From NCBI RefSeq assembly GCF_947623445.1, contig NC_135242.1, positions 20,212,001-20,276,000 of the forward strand: a stretch of DNA of 64,000 nt. The letters are read 5' to 3'. How positions within the stretch are numbered: the first letter of the stretch is position 1; the number at the start of each line of letters is the position of its first letter. Below the pieces are notes generated by a model that saw nothing but the letters and a program-made list of their open reading frames with translations, was not told the origin of the DNA and made no database searches. This DNA is from Clavelina lepadiformis. Taxonomy: Eukaryota > Chordata > Ascidiacea > Aplousobranchia > Clavelinidae. Shown piece after piece: positions 1,630 to 62,177 of the stretch. A program made the translations under genes and the position numbers.

Positions 1630-2680
1630 ACTGGACTAGACTAGAGCCAACGTTTTAGATTCTAACAGTAGTAAAACTTTTCTGTCTGGAGTAGGCTTTG
1701 CGTACTTGATAACATGTTTCAGCCAGTCCACAAAAATATCTGATGTCATCCATCCCTTTCTCTGTATACAATAACAAATGAAACCTAATTGGCTAGCTAG
1801 AACACCGCCAAACAACTTTTTAGTTTCGTTTGAAAGTGCATTCAGCGCAGATAGGCTACACAACTTGCTTGTACTATTATATTGTTTGTGAGCGAATGAT
1901 TGTCAGTCATGTTACACAATAAAAACATCTTTATCATTGCAAATGCACTTTTATTTTATTTATAGTCCTATTATTTTAGTTCCTCAATAATTACAAATTT
2001 GAGGCTTGAGCATAGCATGTAGGCCTACAGACAAAAACAAACTTCTTTAACTCACCTGACATTCAAACATGCTCTCTGGAGGAACACCATCTTGTAATTC
2101 AGTTTTTATGCAAACACGAGGAAATATTAATCCTGGTGGAATAAAGTTACCTATTGCATTCATGCTACAAATAATAGCCACATTTTGCCCCTTTCCACAC
2201 TTGTTATGGTGCCGACCTAATGTTTACCTTTGAGTGCAATAATACTTAATGGCTTCTGTAGGATTGTAGATTGTAAACTCATCCATATTGTATAGAGACT
2301 GACTAGCAATATTATTTATCTTCAAAGTATCAAACAGTAGAATCAAAGAGGTTGTTGACTTGAGTCGAATTAAAGCATGATGCGCGTGCGGCCGTACCAG
2401 ACATGTAACTTCGGGTCTTCGTAATGAAAGCTGTGGATGTCTTTCAAGAAAACCTCTCAACCATTCTTGTCCAGCCATTTTAGTATTTAAGTGGAAGTTT
2501 GTTTTCAAATTGTTAGCTTCTGCAATTTGAAATGCTAGCCTTCTCAAATCACTAAGCTTCTAGCCATAAAATCGCTCTTCAAGTTGAATCACATGGTCTG
2601 CAAGTTGTTGTTCTAATTCCATTGATAAATCAGTCTGGCGTCCAATGTGTTTAGTTGGCCATTTTAATTCTTTATTGGAG
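1630..2680 (-). mobile_element. Pogo/Tigger-like transposase fragment
   Basis: Reading on the minus strand, the upstream part (about 2670-2224) encodes a CENP-B-type helix-turn-helix remnant with MAGQEWLRGFLERHPQLSLR, then the start of a DDE domain (SLYNMDEFTIYNPTEAIKYY). After a gap, 1863-1636 encodes a further DDE piece (KGWMTSDIFVDWLKHVIKYA, then a degraded LLLLESK in place of the usual LLLLDNH). In-frame stops and gaps, including a TAG just before KLSDLRRLAF, show it is dead. It is a degenerate copy of a plain DNA transposon of the pogo/Tigger group. Family is recognised from motifs, not from a search. Confidence 0.75.
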
Positions 2681-2689
2681 GTTTCTCAA

Positions 2690-9640: not shown

Positions 9641-9942
9641 ATGTGCTAGACTAGACTTCAACAATCCCTGCAAAGCTCAGACACACGATATGATTCAGTC
9701 TTGTATACACATAAAATTTAATAAACAGGTTGGGAAAAAAGTTGCAGCTAAAAATACAACATTGGTGGCACCAGATGATATGAAACAAATGAAAGTTTTG
9801 CAGATTTCTCAATCATCACAACTTATCCGTCACATGACAAATTAACAATTCAAAGGCAGAGAGAACGAAATAAAACCAACACAATGTACATTGAATTATT
9901 AAGAATTGTATTTCAAAGTCTTTTCGATGAAGATCTGGATGT

Positions 9943-20923
<10,981 letters not shown>

Positions 20924-21934: not shown

Positions 21935-22195
21935 CATGTCTGTAATTAAACTGTACTACTATATTTTCCTCCACAGATAACATTAGTAGGTAGTAGGCTA
22001 AAACTATTTTCCTTCAATTTGTTCTAACTTGAATTTTATAGCTTAATAACCTAAATCTACCTTCTAATCTAAATCTAACTCTAATAAAACTGTAAATAGC
22101 TAAAATCAATTTTTACATACCCATTCTCCTAAATTAACCGCCTATCTTCAATAACAGGCTGTGTGACCAACATACGATGAAGTAGTCATTTCATT
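21935..22195 (+). repeat. Dispersed CTAA-rich repeat, copy B
   Basis: Same family as 5625-5860 and 54040-54290. The best-conserved part is 22030-22180, containing ATCTACCTTCTAATC, TAGCTAAAATC and the right end CAGGCTGTGTGACC. Non-coding; class unknown. The region just upstream (21840-21935) contains another perfect CRE (TGACGTCA, 21859-21866). Confidence 0.6.
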
Positions 22196-31999: not shown

Positions 32000-33850
32000 T
32001 TACACTAAACAATCCTTATGCTCTTGTAAAATAATATTAACAATTCTCTTATCAAACTCAACATTTGTTTGCAGATTGTCCTCTATGAAGGCATCTTCAT
32101 CCCTTATGCGTTCCAACACAGACAAAATTTCATTTCCTTTGTGCTTGGTTTCATGGTAGGATGAACGTTTCAACACATTGAGCAACAAATCCAAATACTC
32201 TGTTCTTAATTTGTCACCCGGTGAAAGATCAGAAATGTTTCGTGTAAGAATATCTATCAGAACCAATAAGTCATTGGTATAGAGAAAAGACTGGGCTGTG
32301 TCATCACGTGAAAAAATATCTTGAAGAAACTTCACAACAGAATGAGGAGGTGGGCAATCGTTGGCCTCACAAGTAACCACCGGGTCATCTCCCCTGTTGA
32401 CCAGTAGCATTATTTTCTCACTAAGAGTAGTGCTTGATTGTCCGGTAACTACTGCATTCAACGTCAGATTATCTTGTGGAATAAGAAAGTGTAAGTTAAT
32501 GGAAAGAATGAGACGGACGAAGATGTCACCAACTTGATCTTGAGAATCCTCTTCTAAACCATTTTCAATGCATTTTAAGAGAAAACCAATAAACTTTTCT
32601 CCAACAGTGTCATAATAACCTACAGGAACTGGTTCTCCTGTGGAAAACACCATACTCAGCACCAATGCTGAAAAACATATCCTTTGAATGTCATCACAGT
32701 GTTCTGTGATATCTCGAACAAGTTCATCTGGTAAAACAGTTGGCAAAAGAGCAGATATAAACTTCGTTGACAGGGAACAAATCACACCTAAAACCTGCAA
32801 CACTAAGATTCTGATGCTAACCCTAGACTCCATTTGGTGATAAACTGTGAGCATAGTTACAGATTGGCAGTCATCTTTCAATAGCTCATTGATACAGTCC
32901 TCCTTATTTCCATTTGATAATGACTCAATAATATCGTTTAAAATAGTTGTAATTTTCTGTTTGTCATCTTCAATGGCCCAATTCCTTTGTTGTGCATCAT
33001 CTTTTATTTCTGTCAGATTAGCGAGGGCAAGACCTAACTTCTCTATATTGGGATCAGACATGATTTCAGCTGTGGGTAACACCTCAACAATTTCATTCAT
33101 GACGTTTGATATTGATGGGATGCTTTCCCCAATCATTTTGGCAATAGACGCAACCAATTCTCTTGAACGTCCTTCTCTGAGTTTTGTTTGCTCTTGAACT
33201 AAATGGACCAAATCCTCACCCAGATGATTTGGAATGCCAACTACTATGTTTGAGCGGTCAGCTGCAAAATTATCTTCTTGTGTTTTTAATGATACAGTTT
33301 CAGTATGGCTGGCTTCCAGGACAAACTCTTCAACAGCTTTGCTCACTCCTTCAGTACATACAGATGTATTGAAAGATTGCAATTGTTGTGGTTGACTTAA
33401 TGCTGTTTCCTGGTTTAAAGAAATACTTCTTGGTGGTGGCGGAGGAGTGATAGTACATTGCACAGGTGGTGCAGGAGCTTGTCTTTTTGAGTGATTTTGC
33501 TTGTTATGCTTCATTGAAGTCAGTGTTTCATCTTTGTGCTTTGTCAACTTTTTTAACAAACTCTGCTGTTGATCTGAAAGCCTGCCATTTTCAGCTGAAG
33601 CATAAACTGCAGCTATCGCTCGATCAACAGATTGCAGCACAACATCTTTTGAGTCATACTTGTGATCTAATTTAACATAAGTTACCGGAACATACCCTAT
33701 TTTTCCATCAGCATTCGAAGCAAGCCACCAAGAGTCATTGGTTTTCTCAAGAACACAAAGAATGTCTCCATTATTAATTGGCAAAGTGTGGCTACCGCCT
33801 TTACGGCCACTGTAGCTGTGTATGGCTTTGTACATCTTCACCATGCACAT
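32000..33850 (-). CDS. NCKIPSD: NCK-interacting SH3 protein (NCKIPSD/SPIN90), single exon
   Basis: One uninterrupted 616-codon frame. The family's usual N-terminus (human MYRALYAF) aligns with MYKAIHSYSGRKGG, so the true start may be the third Met at 33835 rather than 33850. An SH3 domain spans residues 6-60 (WWLASNADGKIGYVPVTYV). A short proline-rich segment (residues 128-145, TPPPPPRS) follows. The C-terminal leucine-rich region runs from about 215 to 605 and contains KDDAQQRNWAIEDD, NRGDDPV, PPHSVVKFLQDIF and LSPGDKLRTEYLDLL. SPIN90 binds Nck and N-WASP and activates the Arp2/3 complex to nucleate linear actin filaments; it localises to the cortex and endocytic sites. It is shorter than human (722 aa) mainly in the proline-rich linker. 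The vertebrate gene is multi-exon, so the lack of introns here is unusual. The frame is intact. Confidence 0.95.
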   Translation of the reverse strand: MCMVKMYKAIHSYSGRKGGSHTLPINNGDILCVLEKTNDSWWLASNADGKIGYVPVTYVKLDHKYDSKDVVLQSVDRAIAAVYASAENGRLSDQQQSLLKKLTKHKDETLTSMKHNKQNHSKRQAPAPPVQCTITPPPPPRSISLNQETALSQPQQLQSFNTSVCTEGVSKAVEEFVLEASHTETVSLKTQEDNFAADRSNIVVGIPNHLGEDLVHLVQEQTKLREGRSRELVASIAKMIGESIPSISNVMNEIVEVLPTAEIMSDPNIEKLGLALANLTEIKDDAQQRNWAIEDDKQKITTILNDIIESLSNGNKEDCINELLKDDCQSVTMLTVYHQMESRVSIRILVLQVLGVICSLSTKFISALLPTVLPDELVRDITEHCDDIQRICFSALVLSMVFSTGEPVPVGYYDTVGEKFIGFLLKCIENGLEEDSQDQVGDIFVRLILSINLHFLIPQDNLTLNAVVTGQSSTTLSEKIMLLVNRGDDPVVTCEANDCPPPHSVVKFLQDIFSRDDTAQSFLYTNDLLVLIDILTRNISDLSPGDKLRTEYLDLLLNVLKRSSYHETKHKGNEILSVLERIRDEDAFIEDNLQTNVEFDKRIVNIILQEHKDCLV

Positions 33851-34098
33851 GTAAGCACCTTAGTTAAATAAAAGCAAATTAGTACTGATAACCTAGTAAA
33901 ATATAGTGTTCAAAAATAAATAATGCAGTATATTTGAAAAAAGATAACAAAAAATGCATGAAGCAATGCTAGTTTATTCACCCTGTAATGTGCGAAAGAT
34001 ATTTGAAAGACATATCCATAAGACAACTTGAACATATATATAATACTTTATCATATAGATCTTTTTACAATGCCATCTGCCATATTCAAATGAGAGTA

Positions 34099-43535: not shown

Positions 43536-46071
<2,536 letters not shown>

Positions 46072-48261
46072 ATGTTGTTAGTTACTTGGCTGTTTACTAC
46101 TGCAGTGCTGTTACTGTCTGTATGCAATGCAAAGAACCTGTCAGCTTTCAGGTTACCCATTTACAAAAACTGTCAGATCATCCCTGAACATCATGACTTT
46201 ACATATCAGATATCATGCCACAATGCTGCCAATGTTTCCGCTTTAGAAAAAACAGATAATGATATTGAATGGTTCATCTTTAACAACATGGCTGGTAAAA
46301 GGCATATTGGCTTAAGACTTTCACTTACCAATGAAGAAAACGTTATTATGTACAGTCATGGAAGCTCAGATACAATTCCAAATAAATGTTCTATTAGCAA
46401 GAACACTGTTCAAAAAGCACACAACCCTTACATACTTTTAAACGGATTTTCACATAGAGAAAATATAAAACCTGGTCAAGAATTGTATTTTTTTATCAGC
46501 ACACGAACCATCCGACACATTGCTGTGCCTGGATGTCATAATGATAAAGTTAAATGTGTTGATGATTGCAAAAGACACCGCATGGATGACATAGGATCTG
46601 TAAGCATAAAAGAATGTACCAAGGATACTGCCAGGGTAATTTTTCATTACCATTTGCCAACTTCACTTGGAACTGTTGCTGAAGTTGCTGCTTTGCAAGA
46701 CGTTTCTGGGGAAAACTCCCCCAGGCCAGTACAAAAGCCGATTCATCGAAATTCCTCTGGAAGTTTGGAAGTTGATTTTTATAATCATTCTGGCAATAGA
46801 AATTATTTTACTATTCGAGCATATGATATGGACAAACAACAAAACTCTAGAAAACGCTTCAGAGTACCTGTTGATTTATCAAAGTGTACCCCGCGATCTA
46901 TTACCTTTCTTTATGGGTTGCTTGGTTTAGTAGCTTTTATCATATTGCTTTTATTTCCTTGTATCAAACTGAGTGCTAAATTAGTTCTTTCCTCTTGCTT
47001 GAGTTTCATCCACATGAATGAGCAACTGCTAGTATCTCAAGAAAAACCTCCTGTAAAGCAGAATGGTAAAAAAATCTATCTACTATATGTTAATGATCAC
47101 CCCAGGCATAGAGAAATTGTTTTAAAGTTTGCCAGTTTTCTGAAGCTTCAGCTTGGGTTTGAAGTGCTATTTGAATTGTATGCTCACAAAGAAGTGTATT
47201 CTGATCCAGTTTCTTGGATGGAAACAAGTTTCCAGAAAGCAGATAAAGTTCTTGTTATCTGGTCTCCTAGAGCTTTAAAAAAGTGGAAGTTAGGTAAAGA
47301 CTTGACCAAAATACAACAATGTGATATGTTTACACCTATTGTTAAAAAAATCCAGCATAGCCTTATCCTTGGAAATAACATGAAACAACATGTTTTTGCT
47401 TACTTCGATTATTGTGACAAGGACATCATACCAAAGGACTTGAGAAGTTATACAGTACCGTGCTTTAAACTGATGGGGCAATTTAATGAGCTTTACTATA
47501 ATTTGGCAAACCAGGTTCAGGCTAATCAGCTTTGCATACCAGTCGTTTGTAACTACCACTGCAGCCATCAAAACCATGTCAAAATTGGGAAGTCTTCTGA
47601 AAATCTTGCTGTAACCATTATGGATATGTGTTGCTTTGTAAAAGAGAATCCTGGCTGGCATGCAGAAAATTCAAAGAGTGATTTTGATCCATCACATTAC
47701 ACCATTACATCTTGTGCTTATTCTGCAGAAGATAACCTGAATAGTTGTGCAACTTTTGTCGGCAGCCCTCATTACCAAAGCCGGATATCCAATTTTACAA
47801 TCACAACTGATACAAACCATGCTCCAAATAAAAACGGTTCAGATAAAATGTCCATTGACAGTATTTGTTTTTCATCGGAACTTGAATTTGATGAGACATC
47901 ACTATGCTATGCTGATGAATTATATCAACAGCATGCTTTTATTCCTCAGAGTTGTGTTGAAACATCTCTCACTTTAAAGCCATTGTTAATGGATGACTTG
48001 TCAAGTAATTCTTGTTTGCAAAACGGAATTGAGATGTCCTGTGACGATGTGATGTTTTCTAAAAATGATGTTAATTTTCAACATTTTGTCGCTGACACAG
48101 CAAATGGGCTTGTACCTTCTGACCCTAGACAGGAAACGAACGACAACCTTTCATGCAGTTCCAAAGCGAATTATCCTTTTGCTCCAGTATTAGAACCATT
48201 AGCCTTAACTGGTGATCCAATGAATTCTTTGCATGTAGTCAATCAGGCACGGAACCATTAA
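46072..48261 (+). CDS. IL17R: IL-17RA-like receptor 1 (SEFIR), single exon
   Basis: 729 codons, intact. A signal peptide covers residues 1-20 (MLLVTWLFTTAVLLLSVCNA). The ectodomain (21-275) contains the cluster-wide motif IEWFIFNN followed by IGLRLSLT, and paired cysteines. TM is at 277-300. The SEFIR domain, about 334-480, has KKIYLLYVNDHPRHREIVLK, FELYAHKEVY, SWMETSFQKADKVLVIWSPR and FAYFDYCDKDIIP. The C-terminal extension (to about 530) has LMGQFNELYY and FVKENPGW, the layout seen in vertebrate IL17RA. The 200-residue tail is polar and ends PLALTGDPMNSLHVVNQ. IL-17 receptors sit at the plasma membrane and recruit Act1-type adaptors through SEFIR-SEFIR contact. The tail also contains PRQE, which fits the TRAF2-type PxQE consensus (weak). 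First of four tandem paralogues. Confidence 0.92.
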   Translation: MLLVTWLFTTAVLLLSVCNAKNLSAFRLPIYKNCQIIPEHHDFTYQISCHNAANVSALEKTDNDIEWFIFNNMAGKRHIGLRLSLTNEENVIMYSHGSSDTIPNKCSISKNTVQKAHNPYILLNGFSHRENIKPGQELYFFISTRTIRHIAVPGCHNDKVKCVDDCKRHRMDDIGSVSIKECTKDTARVIFHYHLPTSLGTVAEVAALQDVSGENSPRPVQKPIHRNSSGSLEVDFYNHSGNRNYFTIRAYDMDKQQNSRKRFRVPVDLSKCTPRSITFLYGLLGLVAFIILLLFPCIKLSAKLVLSSCLSFIHMNEQLLVSQEKPPVKQNGKKIYLLYVNDHPRHREIVLKFASFLKLQLGFEVLFELYAHKEVYSDPVSWMETSFQKADKVLVIWSPRALKKWKLGKDLTKIQQCDMFTPIVKKIQHSLILGNNMKQHVFAYFDYCDKDIIPKDLRSYTVPCFKLMGQFNELYYNLANQVQANQLCIPVVCNYHCSHQNHVKIGKSSENLAVTIMDMCCFVKENPGWHAENSKSDFDPSHYTITSCAYSAEDNLNSCATFVGSPHYQSRISNFTITTDTNHAPNKNGSDKMSIDSICFSSELEFDETSLCYADELYQQHAFIPQSCVETSLTLKPLLMDDLSSNSCLQNGIEMSCDDVMFSKNDVNFQHFVADTANGLVPSDPRQETNDNLSCSSKANYPFAPVLEPLALTGDPMNSLHVVNQARNH

Positions 48262-49894
48262 TTCAGTGCTTTTTGGAAATTTCAGACTTTCCTGAGATTT
48301 CATGTTTTTCCTACTTTTAATAACCTTTGTAAACTAACACTTATCTCACAATCCATTGACATGTAAATTTTTGCACTTTTTGTAATGCTTGGTAGCTTTG
48401 GCTTCATTGTTTTTGTTGTCATTGTTCTCGGAAAGTTTTTGCACACAGCTCAATTTGCTCAAGGTTCGATAATGTAATTTGCAGTAGCTTGTTTTTGTAA
48501 TTTGCAGTAGCTTGCTTGCTAAAACTTTACCTTAAAAAATGAGAAGTATTTTAATACTTTTCACAAGTTTGTAAATTTTCCACTTTCCCTTAATTGCTTT
48601 TTGTGCCGTCACAACAACAGTTTTATTTTTTACCTGTTTTGCACCGCTTTAGCATTGTGTGTAAGACTATGCAATACTTGCAGTTCTTCAGGATATCCTT
48701 TCTTTGACCGCCCATTCTATTCATGGCCACATTGTGTGAAGTAGTCTTTTTATTTAAAAAGGGTTTCTAGTATTGTGTTTTAGAATTTTGCCATAGCTTC
48801 GTTTCATGTAGCGCAGCATTCCAAATGTATGTTTTAGTAGCATGATATGCAAAACTTTTCATATTAGCTTTTTAAAGATTATTTTTTCCTATATCTTCAT
48901 TTTTTGCAAGCAGTTTGCCTTTATGTCAGTTTGCATTTCCAAGGTAATGTGACGAAGTGTTTTATGTATAATACGTGCTGCGCAGCCATACCACTATACT
49001 ATGTCAGCTGAAAGTTTTCATATTGCTTTTATGCCGCCATGCTTGTGTATTGCGCCTTTTATTTGTCTTCAAATCATTTTACAATTCTTGTTTTAGCTAA
49101 CAGTAAACTAACAATCACCCAATAGCAGTACAATGTTGTTTTTGTAACTCAAACTTTCGTTACGGATTTATTTACAACAAGTGGGGTAGTTCTGTAGGAA
49201 CGTATTAGGATGAACTTTAAATGCAGTAATAACGCAGAGTAGTACCTTTGCCGACACAAAAGCTATTTTTGTTAATATATACGCTTGGCTAAGCATTTGT
49301 GACCTACAGCTAAACTGTATAACTCGTGCGAGACGAACTCGCATCAATATGGCGTGATCTGGACATTCGTATGACGTCAACGAAACTAAGTCATTTTCTT
49401 CTTGCTTTAGTGCAAGAATGTAGTCGCTTGTTCACTTTGCATGCGACTGGCTACGTTAAAAACAACTTAACAATTGAAATACTTGACACATGTTTTTCAT
49501 TACAAGCACCGTTTACGTACGCATTTCGTCGCCCTTGGCGTTTTTGATAGCGTAATTACTACAAGTTTTTCAACTTTTTATACCCTCCATACATAACATA
49601 TACTTCATGTTCTCGCTGATTGCAGTATGATGCAGCAAGTTTGCGATCACTTGAGAATTAGCGAAAAAGAATATATATATGCGGGCATAAAAAATACTAA
49701 TGACGTACTACGCCTACTTTCAGAACAGCTTATCAATTATTATTTCAAAACAGGTTTACGCTGAAGCAAAGCTGGCAGATAGATGGGCGTTAAAAGACGA
49801 AGTTAATCACGTCCATGTTTGACGTTGCAAGGGAGCTCATTTTTAATTTCGTTATTTCAGGTCGCTTGCTGTTAGTAGTGTAAAATCATCACTC
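48262..49894. other. Spacer between receptors 1 and 2
   Basis: Holds the 3'UTR of receptor 1 and the promoter of receptor 2. A TATA-like GAATATATATATGC occurs near 49668 and an acceptor-like TTCGTTATTTCAG ends at 49860, 35 bp before the receptor 2 ATG. No gene seen. Confidence 0.5.
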
Positions 49895-52066
49895 GTGGAG
49901 CCTAAAGTTGTTGCCATGAAACCAATCTTCATTTGTGTATGCTGTATTTTTTGTTTAATTTCATCTGCATTGCCCCAAGTACAAGACTGCGCAGTAATAT
50001 CTCAGCCTATTTTAAAACAAGATTTATGCAGCGAAAGTTCCCATGCCGCGCATGTTAACGGAGGATCAAGCATTGGTTGGTTTGTCTACCGGAATCATAC
50101 GACCAACAGAAATGAGATTGCATTAAATATCACCTGGCTAGCGCAGTCCGGGCTCGGTTTACAAATTACACCCTCAGTGGTTTCTGTGTCGAGACTCATT
50201 GGCACCTTCACAAAGTGTGAAGCCACATATTCGGTTAAGAAGGGCTTTAATCGGACAAACCATCATATCTATATCACCAGTTTATCAAACCAAGAAGCTT
50301 TTAGACCCAGCCAGGAGTTTGTGATAAAAACCGAAATAAGAAACGTGTCATCTTTTTTTCAATTGTCTTTACCGAACTGTCGCCATCCAAATCTATCATG
50401 CGCTTCTGAATGCCAAGGATCAACTTTAGAAGGAGTTGTGCATGAAGACTGCAAAAAAAGATCTGCAACTTTGTCTTACCGCGTGCCAGGCCATTTTGGA
50501 TCCTTTGCGCAATTCATTGTGTATGAAGATAACGCTGTATTGTATGAACCAAAGAATGTCAGTTTAAAAGGTGATCTTACAACAACTTTTGCTGACATAG
50601 CAGACAAAACTTATTATTTTGAGTTCTGGGGATACGATGTTGTTAGACAGGCGCAATCGCCACGGAAGAAAGTTAAGATCGATTTCAGTCAATGTCCATC
50701 AGTGCCAAATGGAATGACCATGAAATTGATCGCTGGAATTGCTGGTTTCTTTGTTACATTAAAGATAATTTGCGTCACAATCAAAGTCGCCATTGCGAAA
50801 TGTGACATTAAAATTACCTTCAATCACGCTTATACTAGACTGATGATGGCAAAGAAAAAGGAAAACGGCATTTCAGTTAACCGGCAAGTCGAAGATTCCA
50901 GCCAAAGGAAAAGAAAAGTGTTTTTAATATACGTCAACGATCATCCTAAACACAAAGAGGTTACCCTAAAGTTGGCATCTTTTCTAAAGTTTGAACTCTA
51001 TCTTGACGTATTATTCGAACTTTACGCAAATAAAGACATCTGCTCCGATCCAATGAAATGGATGGACAATAGTTTTGAACAAGCAGAAAAAGTCGTGGTG
51101 GTCTGGTCACCAGAAGCAGAAAAGAGATGGAGTACAAAAAATTGTGGCAAATTTTACCATTTTGATATGTTTATTCCTATTGTTCAAAAAATACAACAGG
51201 ATATGTCACTTGGCAAAAACGTGAACAGATACCTTTTTGTTCATTTCAATTATTGCCAAAAAGCTGTAATTCCTATGCCTTTCGATCGCCACAGGTCTTA
51301 CGAGTTGATGAATGAATTTGTTGAGTTTTGCCACTGTTTGAAATCTGATGCAAACACAAAGACAACAATTCTGCCAATAATCAACAGCTGTTTGTCACGT
51401 TTTCATTATAGAGAGAATAGGGTGAAGTACAATGCAGCGATACTTTCTACAAGTGTGGAGGAAATGTATTCGTATGTGAAGGAAAATCCTGACTGGTACA
51501 GGTGGCAAGTACATCGCCCAAAATCATCTTTTTACGTGAATTCTTTACCGCCAGAAGACGAGACAAGTTACTGTTTGGACGCCTTACGCGAAGTCGGAAA
51601 CAATACCTCAAGCTGTAAGCCAGTACTCTTACTTGACGTTTCGCGTTTTCCTATTACCAAAGTAGGTTCTGATGACAGCCCATCAAACAAAACAACGTTC
51701 ACCGATCCGTACAATGCAAGACAAGCGGTTGTAAAATTCAGCGACACGGACGAGCTTTATTCACTACAGCAAGCGGCTGACGATAAAATGCAATACAGTT
51801 CGTTTAAATTCGAGAAGTCTGGTAAAAATATTGTTCGTAGCGCTGGTCTTTTTAGCGCCGAACCGGAAGTTAATGCTGGAAATTATTGTGACACAAACAA
51901 TTCGCATGAGGACAAATCATATAATTCAACAACTGCAATCGACATTGCCACGGACAATGTAAATGCTGTACCAGAGTTTGTTACAGTGGACTTTCTGTAT
52001 GTGCCGCAGGGTGCTCCCTACAACTCATTAACGTCAATGAATACGATTGAAATCTCTACTGACTAA
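49895..52066 (+). CDS. IL17R: IL-17RA-like receptor 2 (SEFIR), single exon
   Basis: 723 codons, intact. The first Met (49895) gives a polar start; the second, at residue 8 (MKPIFICVCCIFCLISSALP), begins a better signal peptide and may be the real start. The ectodomain has SIGWFVYRN and EIALNITW, several N-glycosylation sites and paired cysteines. TM is at 277-300. The SEFIR domain (about 341-500) has KVFLIYVNDHPKHKEVTLKL, FELYANKDIC, EKVVVVWSPEAEKRW and FVHFNYCQKAVIP. The extension region is more divergent than in the other copies but keeps FHYRENRVKY and YVKENPDWY. The tail ends APYNSLTSMN, a degenerate version of the DPM motif of its paralogues. Its base composition is visibly richer in G+C than receptor 1. 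Probably the most diverged member of the cluster. Confidence 0.9.
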   Translation: MEPKVVAMKPIFICVCCIFCLISSALPQVQDCAVISQPILKQDLCSESSHAAHVNGGSSIGWFVYRNHTTNRNEIALNITWLAQSGLGLQITPSVVSVSRLIGTFTKCEATYSVKKGFNRTNHHIYITSLSNQEAFRPSQEFVIKTEIRNVSSFFQLSLPNCRHPNLSCASECQGSTLEGVVHEDCKKRSATLSYRVPGHFGSFAQFIVYEDNAVLYEPKNVSLKGDLTTTFADIADKTYYFEFWGYDVVRQAQSPRKKVKIDFSQCPSVPNGMTMKLIAGIAGFFVTLKIICVTIKVAIAKCDIKITFNHAYTRLMMAKKKENGISVNRQVEDSSQRKRKVFLIYVNDHPKHKEVTLKLASFLKFELYLDVLFELYANKDICSDPMKWMDNSFEQAEKVVVVWSPEAEKRWSTKNCGKFYHFDMFIPIVQKIQQDMSLGKNVNRYLFVHFNYCQKAVIPMPFDRHRSYELMNEFVEFCHCLKSDANTKTTILPIINSCLSRFHYRENRVKYNAAILSTSVEEMYSYVKENPDWYRWQVHRPKSSFYVNSLPPEDETSYCLDALREVGNNTSSCKPVLLLDVSRFPITKVGSDDSPSNKTTFTDPYNARQAVVKFSDTDELYSLQQAADDKMQYSSFKFEKSGKNIVRSAGLFSAEPEVNAGNYCDTNNSHEDKSYNSTTAIDIATDNVNAVPEFVTVDFLYVPQGAPYNSLTSMNTIEISTD

Positions 52067-53668
52067 ATTCATGTCTAGTGTCTTTACCCTGTCAAGTTTT
52101 GCTGTTATAATTGTGTCGTTTTGAGTGCCAAAATTTCATATTAAGTTGCAAAACAGAAAAGGATACTTTAATGGGAGTACATAAGGTAATGGAGAGGAGA
52201 TCAGGTTTGAAACTCCGTTTGAAACGGTTTGATTTATAGACTATAGTACCCAAAATTCACTCGACTTTTTACCAGTTATCGAAAAAATAAAACCCGTCTG
52301 TTTCTTTATGAACTATACATCGTTGTCATTGTTTTGGATTTTTTAATATGATTCACCGGAATTCAAAAAAATTCTCAACGGTAAAAACCTCACCGGTAGC
52401 TGTAGAAGAAAGTTCCCGTGGCATCTTTGTTCCTTAGGTTGTTAATAACTACAAAATTTACGTGACAAATTGAAGTGCACCGCTAGCAATTATTTCCAGC
52501 TTTTAAGGCTGGTCATTTTTTATGTTGCTTCTAACGTCGATGAATGCGACACATAGGTGAGCATCGAATATTTTCATTTCCACGCAGAGTTATTGCCAAT
52601 ACCAACATACTGTTCCACATCCTTGATTAGAAAATAACATTTGTAATGCATTGTTAGACATGAATAAAATGAGCGATAAGCATGTAGAATGAGTTTTCGA
52701 TTGGTCTTGTTCTCTTCCGCCTGGATTGAAGAAAACAGTGATTGAAACTCGACAGTTGCTTCGTCATCATCACTGATTATTATTATCAAGACATAGCCTA
52801 CCATCTAAGCTTATAGCAGAAAAACTTATGCAATATTTTTGTTAAAACTGTATTATTTTGAACAGCACAATTTTGTATAACTTACGTTTATTAAGGTTGT
52901 TTACTGTGACCTGCTAAGGGAATTACGATTATGATGAAAATAATCGTATATACTATATAGGCTATGGGCTATGTAAAATATTTCATATGACAAGATCGTG
53001 TACTATTAAACATTAATCATTTACTGTTTGTATCCTACGTAACGTACGTGACACATGACATGCAAGTACTCAAATATGATTTTTTAGGCTATAGACTATC
53101 ATAAAACTTTCATAGTAGTCTATGATTAGGCTCTGTTAAAAAGGTGTTTTATGTCAACTCTTACTGCTTAACGAAGACATAGTATATCTGCCACAAACTC
53201 TATCCGCATGGCTGTTATAGCAATTTTATAATATAGCAAATATAATAACGTTGATTCGAATTTGTTGAGCATGTTTAAATGAGTTTTATTTTGTGTTCTT
53301 TCAAACAGTAATAACGGCCATGAAACTTATTGGTTGCTTGCGCGTGTATTCAAGAACTGCCGTGAATGTAGAATATTAACCTACTCACTACTGTGAAAAG
53401 TTGATAAAAATTCTTTGGATAAAATACAAAGTTAGTAAGCAAAAACTTATTATGTCTTTGAATTTTTGAAATAAATGGAAAAAGCGCTTTCGATTCCTCT
53501 TTTTTCCCTTCGGCGCAACTAAAAGAAAAAGAAGAATCGAAACTCTTGTTGTTGCGTCATAATCACTGAGGGGAAATACCCATCCAGGAACACTTGTTTA
53601 CGTCGTTGACTATAGCTCAAGAAGGGATCGCCAACGGTTGCGTCCATAACCTGTAGGATACCATAGGA

Positions 53669-53986
53669 CAGGCATGCACAACTCAAAACAGTACACGGGC
53701 CGTTTTAGGGAAAAAAATTTTTCGCGGGCCGCGTGCTAACATTGTTGTAACTAACGTGTAGCCTACTTTATATAATGTGACCGATTAACCGTCGAATAAG
53801 AGATATTATTGAGAAGATGGTTACTGTCAAGAGACGGTTGCCTCTCGCACTACAGTATGTAGTTGTTTTTAACGCTTATCGGCGGTAAAGCATCGGATTC
53901 GTTGATTATGTAACTGTAACCGAAATCACGGAATATCTCGTGGGCCGCACGAAAAGGTTTCGCGGGCCGTATGTTGTGCATGCCTG
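53669..53986. mobile_element. 318-bp hAT MITE with perfect target duplication
   Basis: Ends CAGGCATGCACAAC and GTTGTGCATGCCTG are perfect inverted repeats. Identical 8-bp CCATAGGA copies flank it (53661-53668 and 53987-53994). Internal CGCGGGCCG motifs occur near both ends. Non-coding. The perfect flanks indicate a relatively recent insertion. Confidence 0.93.
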
Positions 53987-54039
53987 CCATAGGAGAAAGG
54001 GTACTAAGTAAACCGACAGGTTAAGTTTAGTTGAGTGAT

Positions 54040-54290
54040 TATTTTACCATAAGTAGGTCACGCAGCCCGTTGTTAAAGATATGCGGTTAGGTTAGAAAAA
54101 TGGGTTTGCAAAACGTTGATCTTAGCTATTGGAGATTTAGTTGGAGTTAGAATTAAGTTGAAAGGTACATATAGGTTAGGTTTAGGTTACTTTGTTACAA
54201 AATTTAAGTTAGGTTAACAAGAAACTGTAAAAAATAGCTTTGGACACAAGATTCTTTCCAGTGAAATAGTGCTATGATATGATGGTAATG
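54040..54290 (-). repeat. Dispersed CTAA-rich repeat, copy C
   Basis: The reverse complement aligns with 5625-5860 and 21935-22195, sharing TTTCTTGTTA, AACTTAA, TAACCTAAA, ATAGCTAAGATC and the end GGCTGCGTGACC. On the plus strand this appears as GTTAGGTT-rich sequence. Non-coding; class unknown. Confidence 0.6.
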
Positions 54291-54374
54291 TTTATTCTCT
54301 ATTAAGTAAAATCTTCGCATGACTTAAACCCGCCGATAATTTCTCATCGCTCGAGAACCGTGGCAACCATTGGG

Positions 54375-54669
54375 CCGGACTGAAGAGCATGGCCGATTTC
54401 AGCAAGATCTTGGGTGCGCTAAACAACCAAAAATAACAAGTGTGGTACCGTGGGGCGCAAAAATGCCCAGACCGAATGGAAGTGCACACTTGGGTGTCCA
54501 ATTACATAGTAATGTACACATTTTGACTTATTCAATCTTTAAATCAATTGAAAATTGTGTGCATAGAAGTTCTGTCCTAGTCATTAAGTGCAGAATAAGT
54601 GTGGTACTGAAGCTCATGAAAAGCATACGGTACTTATTGAGTGCGCCTCTGCCAAACTCTGCAGTGTGG
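54375..54669. mobile_element. MITE (GACTG-TATGGCA family), copy 3, with 8-bp duplication
   Basis: The left end CCGGACTGAAGAGCATGGCC and the right end, reversed, CCACACTGCAGAGTTTGGCA form inverted repeats. Identical CCATTGGG octamers flank the element (54367-54374 and 54670-54677). This defines the family's boundaries and its 8-bp target duplication, consistent with hAT-type transposition. Lies 130 bp upstream of the receptor 3 start. Confidence 0.8.
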
Positions 54670-54802
54670 CCATTGGGTTATGTTAATGTTTGATCAAAAC
54701 AATCCATTTATGAAACTACATTTTGTTTTTCAGCTTACTGGTATTTACTTACTCGTTTAGAAGCAACAAATTGTGTACCAGTGATACTCATCCCAGTAAA
54801 AC

Positions 54803-57274
54803 ATGCACTGTTTTTCTGGCACCTCATTAACGTTAATTTTTATAATATGGAGGTTTTTTACTGTTAATGCACAGCTCTTTGGAAGCAATTGTTCAACATT
54901 ATCAACTTTTAAAAGCACTGCTTTCCCAGTTTACTGCAAGATTGAAAATGAGCAATGCAAAAATACCTCTAAGGTCACTGCTGCAGTGCCCAAGGACAAG
55001 ACAACTGGAAATGGATGGTTTTTGTATCAAGATAGTCAATCAAATAAAACAAAAATAGGATTGAATGTGACATGGGGCCCTAACCATGATAGTTCAATGT
55101 CTGATGTAGATGGTTATAGAATCAATGTGTATAGGATAGGGAATAGCAATGACAAAAACTTGTTTAATAACTCATTTTATTGCCTGGAAACAAAACTCAT
55201 TTATCCTTACCATGCTGGTGCAACATTTCACTTTGAATACAAATCGGGTTCTGCCAGTCAGAACATAAAGCCTGGACAAGAAATTCTAGTAAACGTACAA
55301 AATATTCCTGGGCCGTTGGAGGACACAGATGATCAAAGTTTGCTGATGGAAATTAATATCCCTGAATGTAGTGACGCTATGATGAAAGATATTTATCTAT
55401 GCCAAGATAAACTGTCTGGTTCCGCATCGGTTAACTGTGCTGATGAAACTGCCAATTTAACGTATCATGTTCCTGAATATAGTAAAGCAGCAGCAAAATA
55501 TAAGCATGCATATCTTCATGTATGTGAAAATATCGCTCCTTACAATTGCCCCTCAAAAAAAGGATATGATGAGTTGCCACTAGATGGTTTTGTATTGTGG
55601 AACTTTTCCAGTTACCACTACTTAACAAAAAACTATACTTTTAAGATTTTGGGAGTGAAAGAAAATGACCGCTGGGGTATTGAACAACACGCTGTTAATA
55701 TTAACTTTGAAGAATGTCAGCAGTTCGAGATTCCAACACAATCGCTTTCATTAAGTCTGCTAATTGTGTTACCACTTCTTGGCTTATTGTCCTTGGTTGT
55801 TTGCCTGCTACTACTGAGAAGAAGAAAATCACTTAAAGAATGGATTGATAACAATCCTGACGTTGTCAACGCAGGCAAAGTTATTGACTCAAAAATTGAT
55901 CCCTCGATTGAAGAAAATTTAATTGCCTTGGAAGAAAAATTATCAAAGCAAAGCAAAGAAGAAGTAAAAGTGTACATAATATTTGTTGATGACCACCCAA
56001 AACATAAAGAAATTATTTTAAAGTTTGCAGGTTTTCTAAAAGCTGATTTACAGCTTGATATCATATTTGAGTTGTACAATCGCCAAGAAATTTATGGCTC
56101 CCCAGCAGATTGGATGGAAAAAAGCTTGGCTAAAGCAGATAAAGTCATTGTCATATGGTCACCGGGTGCTTCAAAGCGCTGGGATCAATATAACAGCCGT
56201 GATGATGTTCATGAAGACATGTTTACCCCGGTTTTGAAAAAGATCAAGCGAGATTTATTTTATGAGAAAAATAAATCTAAATATTTCTTCACATATTTTG
56301 ATTACTGCAGTAAAGATGTCATTCCACAGGTTTTTCAGGACGATGCGTATTACCACTTTCAGCTTATGAAGCAATTTGAAGAATTGTATTTTCAGCTTAA
56401 AGGCGTTGAGAAGTTTATGCCTGGTCTTGAAATACGGGAGGAAAAGGTTGCATTTGACTGCTTTTTTGATCCCAAGATCAACAAATTTGGACCAGCCCTT
56501 GAACGTGCTATCAATGAAATGGCTGCATTTGTAGAAGATAATCCAAAGTGGTATGAATGTTCACTTGAACAAAGTCATGCCTATACACAACCTTGCAACT
56601 CGGCTGCAGGATGTGCCTCTGATCTTAATACATCTGTTGTACTAAAAAATAGTCTAGAAATTGTTCCTCCTCCCTCATTAAGTGGTTATATACAGAGTGA
56701 CTCGGGTAGGAATGTAGGAGATGAAAACGTTGCATGTCCGTTTGTTGAAATTTCGCCGAAAGAAACTGAAGAAATGGATAAAGTGTGTGTTAGCATAGAA
56801 CCACTTAAACTTTCGGCTGATTTAAGGTCCAAGAATATAGGTTTACAAGACCTAACAAGTCAACAGAGAGCTTTAGCTGAAAAATCTGATATAATCAATA
56901 ATCAGCATATTCCAAGACAGCTTTGTGAAAATGACACCGGTTTTGAACCTCAATCTGAGCGCCAGTTCACAAATGAATTGATTAAAGTTGGGCCAAGTGC
57001 TGTTTCTGCAAATTCAGGATATGTTAATGAGGAAAGAAATAATGTCTTAGACAGTGGTATCAATTCTGGTGATGTATCGTTGGACTTGGGCAGCAATTTC
57101 AGTATAAGTGACGACGGAGTTGATGTTCAGCCAGAAGAAGACACAGAACGGTCGCGAAGTTGTCCCGCCGCAAAGAATGATGTGCAGAAGTCATCTTTGA
57201 ATTTTGTTCCACTTGATATGCACAATGACCCAATGACCACATTGATGCTGATTAATGGCTTAGCATCTTTGTGA
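54803..57274 (+). CDS. IL17R: IL-17RA-like receptor 3 (SEFIR), single exon
   Basis: 823 codons, intact. The signal peptide is residues 1-23 (MHCFSGTSLTLIFIIWRFFT). The ectodomain contains NGWFLYQD and KIGLNVTWGPN, with many N-glycosylation sites. TM is at 315-338, followed by RRRK. SEFIR, about 388-545, has KVYIIFVDDHPKHKEIILKF, FELYNRQEIYG, ADKVIVIWSPGASKRW and FTYFDYCSKDVIP. The extension has LMKQFEELYFQLKGVEKFMP and FVEDNPKWYE, very close in pattern to vertebrate IL17RA. The tail of about 220 residues contains a DSGINS motif (750-755, DSGxxS phosphodegron pattern), PKETEE (fits the TRAF6 PxExx-acidic pattern, weak) and the terminal motif DPMTTLMLIN (809-818). It shares most tail landmarks with receptor 4, suggesting the two are the closest pair. 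Confidence 0.93.
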   Translation: MHCFSGTSLTLIFIIWRFFTVNAQLFGSNCSTLSTFKSTAFPVYCKIENEQCKNTSKVTAAVPKDKTTGNGWFLYQDSQSNKTKIGLNVTWGPNHDSSMSDVDGYRINVYRIGNSNDKNLFNNSFYCLETKLIYPYHAGATFHFEYKSGSASQNIKPGQEILVNVQNIPGPLEDTDDQSLLMEINIPECSDAMMKDIYLCQDKLSGSASVNCADETANLTYHVPEYSKAAAKYKHAYLHVCENIAPYNCPSKKGYDELPLDGFVLWNFSSYHYLTKNYTFKILGVKENDRWGIEQHAVNINFEECQQFEIPTQSLSLSLLIVLPLLGLLSLVVCLLLLRRRKSLKEWIDNNPDVVNAGKVIDSKIDPSIEENLIALEEKLSKQSKEEVKVYIIFVDDHPKHKEIILKFAGFLKADLQLDIIFELYNRQEIYGSPADWMEKSLAKADKVIVIWSPGASKRWDQYNSRDDVHEDMFTPVLKKIKRDLFYEKNKSKYFFTYFDYCSKDVIPQVFQDDAYYHFQLMKQFEELYFQLKGVEKFMPGLEIREEKVAFDCFFDPKINKFGPALERAINEMAAFVEDNPKWYECSLEQSHAYTQPCNSAAGCASDLNTSVVLKNSLEIVPPPSLSGYIQSDSGRNVGDENVACPFVEISPKETEEMDKVCVSIEPLKLSADLRSKNIGLQDLTSQQRALAEKSDIINNQHIPRQLCENDTGFEPQSERQFTNELIKVGPSAVSANSGYVNEERNNVLDSGINSGDVSLDLGSNFSISDDGVDVQPEEDTERSRSCPAAKNDVQKSSLNFVPLDMHNDPMTTLMLINGLASL

Positions 57275-59684
57275 AATGGGTCCTATTATTACAGGACCTT
57301 TACCAACTACGTTCAAGTTTTTTTTTTTTTATTTGGTTTATGTAAAAATGGAAAAAGTTGTTGTACATCCATTTTTCGTTAATTTTTATTTTATGCGTAT
57401 GCTATACACAATTAAGCCATTATGTTTATGCATTAAACGATTGACAAAAAGTTGACACAAATACTTAAGCTTGTTGAATTTAACATTTTGTATATCTTTT
57501 TTCAAGCTGCCTAAACTTAAAGTTTGTTTCATTTAGTGTGAAAATATGTTGCTAACTACAAACTAAAATCATATTCATTTGCTTGAACTAATGTTTGTTT
57601 AATATTTAGCAGGATCGACTTGCTCTGCGTAACTCAATGTCATACATTGTATATGTTTCTGAGTAGTTTCAGTGTTTTATTTTTATCTTAATAGTTGCAA
57701 ATCAATTGTTTGTGCAATATGGACCGTTGCAGAATATAATGCCAAAGTCATAACCGACATATTATATATTAGATATATATATACATTTTTTCCCCTGGTA
57801 AATGCGTGTAGCAACAATTCTTGTAATTGTGTAAGTGTTAAGAAATGTGCCATAACTGGTGTTGTAAAATTGCTCAAGGCAGTGTAATGACTCGCTTACA
57901 ATTATTTCCTGGTATTTAATTCTTCCTTAAATAGTTTTATGACGTTTTCGCTTATCAGGATTCCCATTGACTAGCTAGTAGTACGTCAACCGGAAGTGAA
58001 ACTATTTATGAAAATACGTACTCATTTACTGGATCTTGATTGTATAATACTTGTGGTTTTTTTTTTTCAGTTTTTGTAGGCTAACATGAATAATGCAAGT
58101 TTATAACTAGATATGGTTATCATTTACTGGGAATTGTGGCTTCCAGAATATTTTTTTTCTCAGACACCTCCAAGTCATATTGAGTAAGTGAATCAATTAT
58201 TGTTTTTAGACATTTTAAACAATATAAGTGAATATAAGACGTGTTAAATCCAACACAGTGATATAACCTAGGGGGGGAGGCGTTAATTAAGAGTTGAAAT
58301 GACTAGTTACATATTACTATAATATATTACTATAGTTATATATCTATGGTTTATAAAATTGGCAAGAAATGTGCACAAAAATAACACAGGGTGGTAATGC
58401 AATTTAGCAATCAACATACATAAGCTGTAATTTGTTAGGACACCTTTGCATCAAATCTTTACATGTGCAGTATTATGGCTGTGGTTACACCCTATCTTTA
58501 GGGTCATGTAAAAATTTAACCTTCATTTCATCTTAGTTGATGTAGCAACATAACAGCTAACAACTTAGTCAGGATAAATCTGTACTTTAAACAATGTAAA
58601 TGTACGTACGTGTAACATATATTACAAGATGATATGTTTAGAATAGGCTCACAAGTCACAACAAAAACATTACGCTAGCTTTTTAACCAAATGTCGTATG
58701 TCTACAATATTGATGTACCAATTAGCTCATAACTAAACTGGTATTAATTTCAAAAAAATAAGTGCTGCTCATACCTGGAGCAAGAAAAAACACTTTGACC
58801 TAATTGGAATTTTAAATTGGTGATTATTGAGTTGAACCTTTTACAGATATTCATTAATTATACTGTGATATATGAATCTAGTCAAAACAAAACATTGATA
58901 TAAGTTTTTCAATGTCAGCACCGTTCTTTTCCTCTAAAGTTAATGAAAAGTTGCAATTACATTTTTGGAGTGTAGTTACACCAGAACTTCTGAAATAGAA
59001 ATTTCAAAGATAAGCAAATGTTACCTGCAACAGTTTTTTGAAGTTTAGAAATAGACAGCTTAAAGTACTTACTGATTTGTTATTCATTAAAAAAATACAT
59101 GATGCTAAGTAAAAAAGCTGTCTTGTACCCTACATTAAACGTAACTTCATTTTTATGTGACAGTTTATAGAGGTTTGTATTAATTGAAAGTATATTATCG
59201 CCTTTTCCAATTCTGACGAAATGCAGTGTGCTACATTTAAATATTAGGGTTGTAACCAATTCATTTTATTTTGACTTGAGTCAATGCTTTTAACACAAAA
59301 AATTTTCGGAGGTCACGCTATACATTGCATTAAATTGGTTCTAGTTGATACTTTTTACAGAGAAGTGTAATTTTTAGAAAAATATCTGTTTTTGTCACAA
59401 CTGTCATAAATCATAATGTGACACGAGTCAATGTCTTGAAGTCTTATTTTAGGAGTTTCAAATCATCTTTTTTTAATGTGTTTTTTGCTATAAATGGTAT
59501 CAGTAGAAAACAGTAATGTAAGGCTGGTATTTGTATTGGAAAGTATTTCTGCTCCTTCAAATTCAATTATCACGTCATGGCAACACATAATGTGTAATTT
59601 TTTCGTTATCGTTTTCTGTGTGAAGTACTTACTATCTGTACTCTTCTTTGTGTATTTCAGAGGCTGGTGCTGAGTTAAAATGGA
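57275..59684. other. Spacer between receptors 3 and 4
   Basis: AT-rich, with no gene or recognised element. An acceptor-like GTGTATTTCAG ends near 59660, about 25 bp before the receptor 4 start. Confidence 0.5.
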
Positions 59685-62177
59685 ATGATGAATGTAACTT
59701 TCTTTTTTGTCATAGCTTGCTTGGCCTTTTGCTCTGTGCTGTGTATTGTTGATGCACAAGAATGCATCAAGAATGATTGTTCTACTTTCAGTGAAAATAT
59801 CAACTCTGATTACAATAAAAGCTTTATTTCCTGCTCAATTCAGCCTGAAATGTGCGAAATCATTGACACCACTGAAAAACCAGATGACACAACTTATCAT
59901 GGAGATGGTCGCTTGATAGATTGGTATTTATATCCAGATCCAGTACATGCAGGCCTAAAAAGTATAGCTGTTAATATTTCATGGGGACCAACTAACAATG
60001 GTTTAGTGACTCACCTGCAAGGCTTTGAAGTAGTTTTCTCTAATGGCAAAGCAGCTTATCCACCCTTGTACTATTGCTTACACACAAAATTAGATTTTTT
60101 TAAACATGCTCTTTCAGACTTCCATTATGATTGCTTTGGGTTGATAAATCAAACTTATGTGAATCCAGGGGATCAAATTGACATTCTTGTAAGAAGTCTT
60201 CCACGGTCTCAAACCAATGAGAAAAAGTTCCGAATTGAAATACCCTGTTGCAAGAAACGAAAGAAGTTTTCGGAAGTTTCCTATTGTTCGCTAAAGAAGT
60301 TTATAAATGCAACCGCTAAAGTAGTTTCCTGCAATGACAGACTTGTACAATTTACGTATGTTGTACCAGATATTTATAGGAACAAATTTCACATTCAGTC
60401 TCTTGTATCCAATCCTGCTTACAAAACTGTATCTGTTTATAATACTAGTCAGCTTGCTGGAAATATTACTTTCACCCTTCCTGAAAAATGTAATTTTAGC
60501 CAAATCTTTGCAGTTGCCATTGTAGAGTCATCAAGATGTAGAGAGCGTTTATCTCTGACAACTTTTAACTTTACAGAATGCCAAAATGCTGCTGATGTCA
60601 CAACCTTCTTCACTATTGGGTTGGTGGGTACTATTTTTGTAATTATAGCTGCTGCCATAGTTGTGGTAGTTATTTCAGATAAGCGACATCACGTATCCAT
60701 ATGGTTAAGTTTAAAATGCGATCGTGATTCTAAGTTTGGAGGTGGAGTGATGGAGTCAGTTTCTCAACAACGTCAAGATGAAACTGAGCAGAGTGATGTC
60801 AAAGCTGGCATGAAAGACAAAGTCCAGAAATTGTTTGTTGTATTTTGCGATGATCATGATCAACACAGGTGTGTAATTCTCAAATTGATTAACTTCTTGG
60901 TGGAGGACTTGGGTTTCCAAGTGTCATCTGAACTTAGTGAAAGCTTAAATCTTATTGAAGATGCTTTTAGCTGGATGGATCAAAAACTCTCTGAAGCTGA
61001 TAAAGTTGTTGTTATTTGGTCTCCCTTAGGAAAGGAGAAATGGCAAAAGTATATGGAATGTTCAGTTATTGATTCTAATAGCCCTGATGTTTTTTCTCCA
61101 GTAGTAAAGCAAATCCGGAATGATTTGAGATGTGGAAGGAACCTGGGAAAATATATCTTTGCTTATTTTGAATACTGTTCGACAGATGTTATTCCTGATA
61201 TTTTTGCTGAACTTGCTGTCCCTTGCTTCCGATTAATGAATCAATTGGAAGACATTTATTTCAAGATAACTGGTGAAGAAAAATATAACCCTGGTGGTAC
61301 ATTGAGGGTGGAAAATGTGGAATCTGAACGCTATTTTTTGCACGGTATCAACAGGCATGGATTAGGCTTAAAAACACGTGTTGATGAAATGTGCAAATTT
61401 GTTCGGATTCATCCGAAATGGTTTGAAAGAAAAATTTCAGTTGAACCTTCCTGCCTTGTTTCAAGTTGTGTAAATCATGATTACATTCAAACCAACAGCA
61501 TTCATGTAGTGCCACCACCCATCGTTAATAATGTTCAAAAAACGGCTTTTATCAATAATGATGAAACTACTTCATTGTTAGACAACGGCTGCATAAAAGA
61601 AGTGCAGGTCCAGTCCGTAAATCATCAAATCACCACAGTACCAAGAAACAAGCCTGCACTTGAAAAAAGTGAAAATCTTTGCAGCATATCAACACCATCT
61701 TCTATAACACCTTACACGCATACATGGGAAGATCATGGGAATGTGTCTCCACCATATCAACCAATGCCGGGACAAAGCCATGATATGGCACCATGCCTAG
61801 AGCAGGACATCAAAGATGACAATATCATCATCAATAGTGTTGAAAAGATGATTAATCAGGATTCTGGATGCTACAAGGACTATAGAGATAATAATGTAAA
61901 TGATGCTGTTGCTTCCAGTCATGATTTATCTGAGCAACATGCATCAGACAAGCAACTTGGGAATAACAATGTATTAGACAGTGGAATCTGTAGCTATAAA
62001 CCACATTTTTCCAATGCAACATTTCATAATGAAAGAGATGCTTTGCTTAACAACGACCAAAGCTATGATGGTGTCATTCCAGAGGTTGCAAACCTTGCCC
62101 CTTTGGTGGTTTCTGAAGACCCGATGAAATTGCTAATGTCAATTAATTTACAATCAACCTGTGGAGGTATAAATTAG
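59685..62177 (+). CDS. IL17R: IL-17RA-like receptor 4 (SEFIR), single exon
   Basis: 830 codons, intact. The signal peptide is residues 1-24 (MMNVTFFFVIACLAFCSVLC). The ectodomain contains IDWYLYPD and SIAVNISWGPT and is cysteine-rich (CCKKRKK, CSLKK). TM is at 306-331. SEFIR, about 382-530, has KLFVVFCDDHDQHRCVILKL, ADKVVVIWSPLGKEKW, DVFSPVVKQIRNDL and FAYFEYCSTDVIP. The extension LMNQLEDIYFKITGEEKYNP through FVRIHPKWFE closely follows human IL17RA (MDRFEEVYFRI...CPDWFE). The FELY-type motif of the other three copies is replaced by SELSESLNLI. The tail carries DSGICS (765-770) and DPMKLLMSIN (812-821). The first two codons are both ATG; either could start translation. Confidence 0.93.
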   Translation: MMNVTFFFVIACLAFCSVLCIVDAQECIKNDCSTFSENINSDYNKSFISCSIQPEMCEIIDTTEKPDDTTYHGDGRLIDWYLYPDPVHAGLKSIAVNISWGPTNNGLVTHLQGFEVVFSNGKAAYPPLYYCLHTKLDFFKHALSDFHYDCFGLINQTYVNPGDQIDILVRSLPRSQTNEKKFRIEIPCCKKRKKFSEVSYCSLKKFINATAKVVSCNDRLVQFTYVVPDIYRNKFHIQSLVSNPAYKTVSVYNTSQLAGNITFTLPEKCNFSQIFAVAIVESSRCRERLSLTTFNFTECQNAADVTTFFTIGLVGTIFVIIAAAIVVVVISDKRHHVSIWLSLKCDRDSKFGGGVMESVSQQRQDETEQSDVKAGMKDKVQKLFVVFCDDHDQHRCVILKLINFLVEDLGFQVSSELSESLNLIEDAFSWMDQKLSEADKVVVIWSPLGKEKWQKYMECSVIDSNSPDVFSPVVKQIRNDLRCGRNLGKYIFAYFEYCSTDVIPDIFAELAVPCFRLMNQLEDIYFKITGEEKYNPGGTLRVENVESERYFLHGINRHGLGLKTRVDEMCKFVRIHPKWFERKISVEPSCLVSSCVNHDYIQTNSIHVVPPPIVNNVQKTAFINNDETTSLLDNGCIKEVQVQSVNHQITTVPRNKPALEKSENLCSISTPSSITPYTHTWEDHGNVSPPYQPMPGQSHDMAPCLEQDIKDDNIIINSVEKMINQDSGCYKDYRDNNVNDAVASSHDLSEQHASDKQLGNNNVLDSGICSYKPHFSNATFHNERDALLNNDQSYDGVIPEVANLAPLVVSEDPMKLLMSINLQSTCGGIN

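Follow-up and report, generated by a model that had tools for sequence, protein, structure and literature searches.

Dispersed single-coding-exon IL-17 receptor-like genes in the ascidian Clavelina lepadiformis

Vertebrate IL17RA is a multi-exon gene. Invertebrates also have IL-17 receptors with a SEFIR domain, as does C. lepadiformis; among them are IL17R1 and IL17R2 of the sea urchin and IL17R-A to F of the mussel. The sea urchin is described with two receptors (17 and 16 exons) and 35 ligands (PMC5457136), and the mussel receptors with up to 11 exons and six isoforms (PMC8353272). Ciona, which is considered here from papers alone, is another tunicate with an IL-17 receptor (IL17R); a 2023 paper treats one receptor and three ligands (PMC10433773), and seven Ciona IL-17 entries are listed elsewhere (PMC8353272). 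An unrelated receptor family, the bivalve nAChRs, has likewise expanded as intronless tandem arrays (PMC6896357). Here we describe four IL-17RA-like receptor genes, W1 to W4, which lie head to tail on the + strand at positions 46072-62177 of a 64,000-nucleotide stretch of the C. lepadiformis genome (C3:20212001-20276000, hereafter the window), and which belong to a receptor family dispersed over several chromosomes.

In contrast to the single multi-exon IL17RA gene of vertebrates and the two many-exon receptors of the sea urchin, the Clavelina genes have one coding exon and are present in many copies. A Pfam SEFIR search of the genome (209.06 Mb in 95 contigs) yielded 17 places: four in the window, six at C3:19.49-19.51 Mb (five intact, the other a broken fragment), three on C1, one each on C4 and C2, and two on C7; the members on C5 and C9 were added via a D1 search, and all genome counts from these profile searches are lower bounds. 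Fourteen single-frame SEFIR receptors were found on four chromosomes, nine in family A (W1-W4 and X1-X5, the X cluster lying about 0.75 Mb from the window array) and five in family B (three genes on C1, one on C4 and one on C5). A SEFIR-less receptor lies on a fifth chromosome, C9; like the 14 others it is a single frame, giving 15 in all. IL-17 ligand-like sequences were detected at 13 places (E 0.01 or better), one of them with an internal stop, compared with the seven entries listed for Ciona. They include places at C7:18.065-18.088, C9:15.07-15.11, C2:22.82 and C4:18.80-18.84 Mb, and are in part arranged in small clusters. Among the matches listed by a literature search of titles and abstract starts, which included few subscription papers, neither the array nor a Clavelina IL-17 receptor was described. 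What is new here is a dispersed expansion of single-coding-exon IL-17 receptors with reduced architectures and a tract of SEFIR homogenisation.

Four receptor genes in the window

W1 occupies 46072..48261 (ATG at 46072, stop included, in an open frame), W2 49916..52066 (frame open from 49847, likely ATG at 49916), W3 54803..57274 (frame open from 54800, ATG at 54803) and W4 59685..62177 (frame open from 59679, ATG at 59685). From stop to stop the frames comprise 729, 739, 824 and 832 codons, or 716-830 codons counted from the likely start; the chance of a stop-free run this long, from a given codon and at this base composition, is below 1e-22 for each. All four genes carry a SEFIR domain over the curated Pfam cut-off (E 2e-27 to 6e-24), at 47068..47505 in W1 (residues 333-478, E 1.9e-26), 50912..51334 in W2 (residues 356-496, E 6.2e-24), 55967..56398 in W3 (residues 390-533, E 2.2e-27) and 60828..61265 in W4 (residues 384-529, E 6.6e-25). 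The family profile aligns with the 4nux chain (216 residues) as far as residue 213, indicating that the C-terminal helical extension of SEFIR is present, and the conserved end of this extension is common to W1-W4. In W3 the IL-17RA-type extension continues to about 56563 and was aligned to 4nux/9ot1 as far as residue 588.

Hydropathy identifies a single strong transmembrane-like span ahead of the SEFIR domain in each gene (46891..47001 in W1, 50714..50809 in W2, 55730..55825 in W3 and 60588..60689 in W4). By the same measure, the N-termini of W1, W2 and W4 are flagged as hydrophobic, and that of W3 is visibly so yet under threshold. The cytoplasmic tails are 183-247 amino acids long. The array of four uninterrupted IL-17RA-like frames that an earlier note had proposed for this span is thus confirmed. 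Its claim of a common architecture holds for the span, SEFIR, extension and tail of all four genes, and in part for the ectodomain and the signal peptide: the N-terminus is flagged in three of the four genes, and the D1 domain is matched directly by Pfam in W3 only (IL17R_fnIII_D1, E 3.3e-7). For W1, W2 and W4 the D1 region was recognized by alignment to W3, with which it has cysteines in common.

A profile built from seven ectodomains matches IL-17RA, and vertebrate IL-17RA is the best PDB match by sequence and fold. Like the W genes, it has a D1 signal, one span, a long tail and a SEFIR domain that continues into a helical extension; its fibronectin-III (FN3)-like D2 has a putative counterpart in them. 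We consider it likely, from these sequence features, that W1-W4 encode IL-17 receptor chains with an IL-17RA-type ectodomain, one span, SEFIR plus extension and a long tail, which would signal via Act1.

Several results weigh against this assignment. The Pfam D1 search gives no match in W1, W2 or W4, and Pfam D2 (PF16578) matches nowhere in the genome. The IL-17RD N-domain (PF16742) was likewise without a match in the genome; since the controls were also silent for both PF16578 and PF16742, absence of these domains is not demonstrated. Two AlphaFold models are poor, with a mean predicted local distance difference test score of 49.5 and 52.4, and lend weak support only. Among the 50 matches listed in the VIA structure comparison, FN3 proteins are numerous and IL-17RA chains are absent. 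A long CC' insertion, named as a feature of IL-17RA (PMC4014126), was not found: the corresponding segment has 16-20 residues in eight of the nine family A rows (X4 is unmatched by the pattern) versus 28 in human IL-17RA. Finally, the family A genes may be orthologues of IL-17RA or of another IL-17R: the approximately unbiased (AU) test rejects neither a clade of family A with human IL-17RA (p 0.44) nor one of families A and B (p 0.36).

The stop-to-ATG gaps between W1, W2, W3 and W4 are about 1.7, 2.7 and 2.4 kb. A tunicate operon was rejected as an arrangement for the array, these gaps of 1.7-2.7 kb comparing with a definition of less than 100 bp (PMC2760879). Neither Rfam, at the gathering threshold, nor a tRNA scan gave a match in the window. 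The non-coding stretch 54077-54669 upstream of W3 resembles sequences ahead of X5 (72-74%), and the latter also match another window site, 22047-22147 (79%); the shared stretches are probably a dispersed repeat.

Relationships and reduced architectures

In the SEFIR tree, in which IL-17RA and IL-17RB are the only vertebrate receptors, family A groups with a support of 90/91 (80/91 without Act1) and family B with 99/99 (100/100 without Act1). W1 and W2 are sisters (support 100). The best full-length tree places W4 on the side of the X cluster, and a clade of W1-W4 is neither recovered nor rejected (AU p 0.34 for full length, 0.38 for SEFIR). The four genes had been suggested to form a group of their own, derived from a self-contained founder by tandem duplication. 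The position of W4 in the best tree does not support this picture, nor do the five further A genes in the X cluster and the five B genes on C1, C4 and C5.

That the tandem paralogues are old, one of two possibilities raised in the earlier note, is supported. Among W1-W4, X4 and X5, the synonymous distance is at least 1.66 or undefined in 45 of 45 comparisons (15 pairs, three regions). Owing to this saturation, no ratio of nonsynonymous to synonymous distance (dN/dS) is given for W1-W4, and we make no claim for them of fast-evolving ectodomains or of the evolution driven by ligands or pathogens that the note proposed. In family B, the B1/B2 pair has a dN/dS of 0.62 in the ectodomain versus 0.24 in SEFIR, indicating a faster ectodomain, in keeping with the note's expectation, and there is little contrast between the two regions in B2/B3 (about 0.70 versus 0.61).

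Family B receptors consist of D1, a span and SEFIR, with an acidic linker at the position of D2, and their profile aligns to IL-17RA over D1 only. A short ectodomain is also seen in mussel IL17R-A, where the span is at residues 221-243 (PMC8353272). Conversely, X1-X3 align to other family members only from D2 onward and have a hydrophobic segment of their own at the N-terminus, flagged in X1 and X2 and under threshold in X3. A search with the D1 profile found no D1 beside X1-X3; as W1, W2 and W4 are missed by the same profile, X1-X3 may have a D1 exon that escaped it. Receptors of both kinds seem to have retained a single ectodomain module out of two, D1 in family B and D2 in X1-X3. The frames of X1 and X3 end early, and similarity extends past their stops.

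The C9 gene (C9:5748909-5750054) encodes D1 together with a D2-like part and a span; its cytoplasmic end has only about a dozen residues and lacks SEFIR. Used as a query, it matches only itself and the A and B genes, and it is a possible decoy receptor. It is very unlikely that some of W1-W4 are themselves non-functional or inhibitory (decoy) receptors: although the family includes this SEFIR-less gene, the broken SEFIR fragment and the shortened X1 and X3, all four window genes are full-length with SEFIR and its extension, and W1, W3 and W4 retain the C-terminal motif described below.

Two neighbours in the X cluster have almost the same SEFIR domain. The SEFIR segments of X2 (C3:19494731-19495159) and X3 (C3:19498121-19498555) are 98.4% identical over 147 codons (dN 0.017, dS 0.013). 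In contrast, their ectodomains have 29% protein identity and saturated dS, and the SEFIR extension is intermediate (dS 0.60). DNA similarity extends beyond SEFIR into the tail, at 85% overall, pointing to a recent tract within an older duplicate. Homogenisation by gene conversion would be the simplest reading of this pattern, and misassembly is the alternative. Homogenisation between neighbours can keep SEFIR domains alike without any speed-up of the ectodomain, and can thus be part of any contrast between the two regions; none was detected among W1-W4.

Single coding exons and their origin

The earlier note took each of the four genes to be a single exon. For the coding part this stands, and it is limited to that part because sequences resembling 3' splice acceptors precede two of the ATGs, at 49841..49860 (+), 55 nt before that of W2, and at 59641..59660 (+), 24 nt before that of W4. 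Such a sequence lies ahead of the ATG in four of the 15 family genes (W2, W4, X4 and C5; P 0.017), against a background of 186 of the 2,699 ATGs of the window, with a distance limit that was chosen after the hits were known. This is a hint that the acceptor-bearing genes may have an intron in the 5' untranslated region or undergo trans-splicing.

How unusual a single coding exon is in this genome can be judged from other genes. Among five further window genes with a Pfam family, a MYST acetyltransferase (43536-44867, which we take to be KAT5-like from its domain order) and a SPIN90-like gene (32000-33859, - strand) each have all domains found in a single frame, and RPB1, an ATP_bind_1 GTPase-type gene and LMBR1 are split; a sixth, phosphotransferase-like gene is ambiguous. 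Across the genome, the seven MYST places represent four loci, two of them single-frame, and frames of at least 987 amino acids contain 11 of the 18 TIR places. In the three TIR genes examined, one frame holds the leucine-rich repeats and the first half of the TIR domain. Thus, from small samples, single-frame genes look common in Clavelina, which makes the intronless state of the receptors less striking.

The single coding exons might accordingly reflect a genome-wide tunicate trend that needs no special event, a reading to which we give somewhat less than an even chance. Besides these frames, it draws on the SPIN90-like gene, whose domain has no second copy in the genome, and on Ciona, where single-exon genes make up 15% of those outside operons and 38% of those within them (PMC2760879). 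However, the samples are small, and not all SEFIR genes follow the trend. A match to TRAF3IP2 (E 8.7e-29) identifies the C2 place as Act1, the only one found, and the C7 places represent a pair of receptors that closely resemble each other and lie on opposite strands; the SEFIR domains of Act1 and of both C7 genes are spread over separate frames, indicating introns (exons judged by eye). Moreover, 15 single frames out of 15 exceed the rate among the neighbours if the genes are independent, unless a single ancestor passed the state on to them. One intron-free ancestor for A and B would be possible, given that a clade of the two is not rejected.

A more specific proposal, raised in the earlier note beside complete intron loss, is that a multi-exon receptor gave rise to a retrocopy at this site, from which tandem duplication produced the array. 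The many exons of the sea urchin (PMC5457136) and mussel (PMC8353272) receptors, set beside the uniformly single-frame A, B and SEFIR-less copies, are in line with this, and the exon numbers in the sea urchin suggest that introns were probably lost somewhere toward the Clavelina lineage. Intronless molluscan nAChRs offer a precedent, as retroposition followed by tandem duplication was argued for them (PMC6896357), but it is not established for Clavelina. Single-frame copies on five chromosomes place a common founder before the array, the tree does not establish the multi-exon C7 pair as a parent, and step-wise intron loss fits equally well where single-frame genes look common. We therefore regard a retrocopy as rather unlikely, and as an origin of the array it is not demonstrated. 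Any poly(A) or target-site traces of retroposition in the window copies have probably been erased, the copies being saturated at synonymous sites. Our preferred reading remains an old single-coding-exon IL-17 receptor lineage that would have spread by local and dispersed duplication. The family may then have diversified by losing ectodomain modules, tails or SEFIR, and SEFIR domains of neighbours would have been homogenised at least once.

Other features were noted along the way. Toll-like receptor genes whose frame runs to about 1,000 codons occur at C4:21.377-21.410, C3:24.38-24.39 and C7:18.079 Mb, some of them clustered, and in the three examined the frame ends at nearly the same point of the TIR domain. 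The exon of the RPB1 C-terminal heptad repeat is accompanied by a second long frame (507 amino acids) on the same strand (9816-11339 and 9943-11496, - strand), probably a repeat artefact. Probable transposon remnants lie at 1636-3719 (-) and 24007-24432 (+), with pieces of a reverse transcriptase (below the curated cut-off), a DDE endonuclease and a weak match to a hAT dimerisation domain.

Tail motifs and predicted signalling

The tails are 19-37% identical in aligned pairs. Those of W1, W3, W4, X2 and X4 end with a shared motif, P-[LIV]-x(3,5)-[DN]-P-[MV]-x-x-[LI]-x-x-[IV]-N, and the stricter pattern P-L-x(4)-D-P-M-x-x-L-x-x-[IV]-N matches at 48196..48243 in W1, 57209..57256 in W3 and 62100..62147 in W4 (all +). 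The looser form is found in 5 of the 12 tails counted (C7b and B3 were excluded as near-copies, and X1 and X3 have no tail), compared with a mean of 0.001 in shuffled tails, and this count was reached in none of 5,000 shuffles. W3 and W4 also contain DSGINS (57050..57067, +) and DSGICS (61977..61994, +), sequences of the form DSG-hydrophobic-x-S that resemble what we take to be the consensus of the beta-TrCP phosphodegron. This form is shared with the C7 pair (3 of the 12 tails, reached in 0 of 5,000 shuffles), and plain DSG, also in 3 of 12, was matched in 81 of 5,000 shuffles. These patterns were written after the tails had been read, so that the counts overstate significance.

In vertebrates, ligand binding promotes contacts between D1 tips, which are thought to space the SEFIR-Act1 assembly (PMC9477748), and helix C of the IL-17RA SEFIR domain is required for binding of Act1 (PMC4014126). 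W1-W4 possess corresponding parts, and ligand-like and Act1 genes exist in the genome. By analogy, dimeric IL-17 ligands would bind the W1-W4 ectodomain, predicted to be D1 followed by an FN3-like D2, and join receptors at the D1 tips. SEFIR domains paired in this way would then recruit Act1 and start NF-kB/MAPK-type signalling, and the C-terminal and DSG motifs may tune adaptor recruitment or receptor turnover. D1-only chains would retain the part that makes tip contacts and two of the IL-17RB ligand sites that have been described. D2-only chains would be without the tip-contact part, implying a different role, such as that of a co-receptor or inhibitor.

A further, speculative extension, which we think quite unlikely, is a modular system in which the halves of the classical ectodomain are distributed over separate signalling chains, and in which chains with D1 and D2 (W1-W4, X4 and X5), D1-only (B), D2-only (X1-X3) and SEFIR-less (C9) chains would combine at the cell surface, with gene conversion sharing SEFIR domains while the outer domains diverge. 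If true, it would couple varied recognition to a single unchanging output. In X2 and X3, nature would provide a clear example of recognition domains that diverge as the signalling domain stays alike. With 14 receptors, 13 ligand places and one Act1, the IL-17 axis would have expanded on the receptor side as well, unlike in the sea urchin. Tunicates are close relatives of vertebrates. The Clavelina chains with D1 or D2 alone would show which contacts of the ectodomain IL-17 receptor signalling needs.
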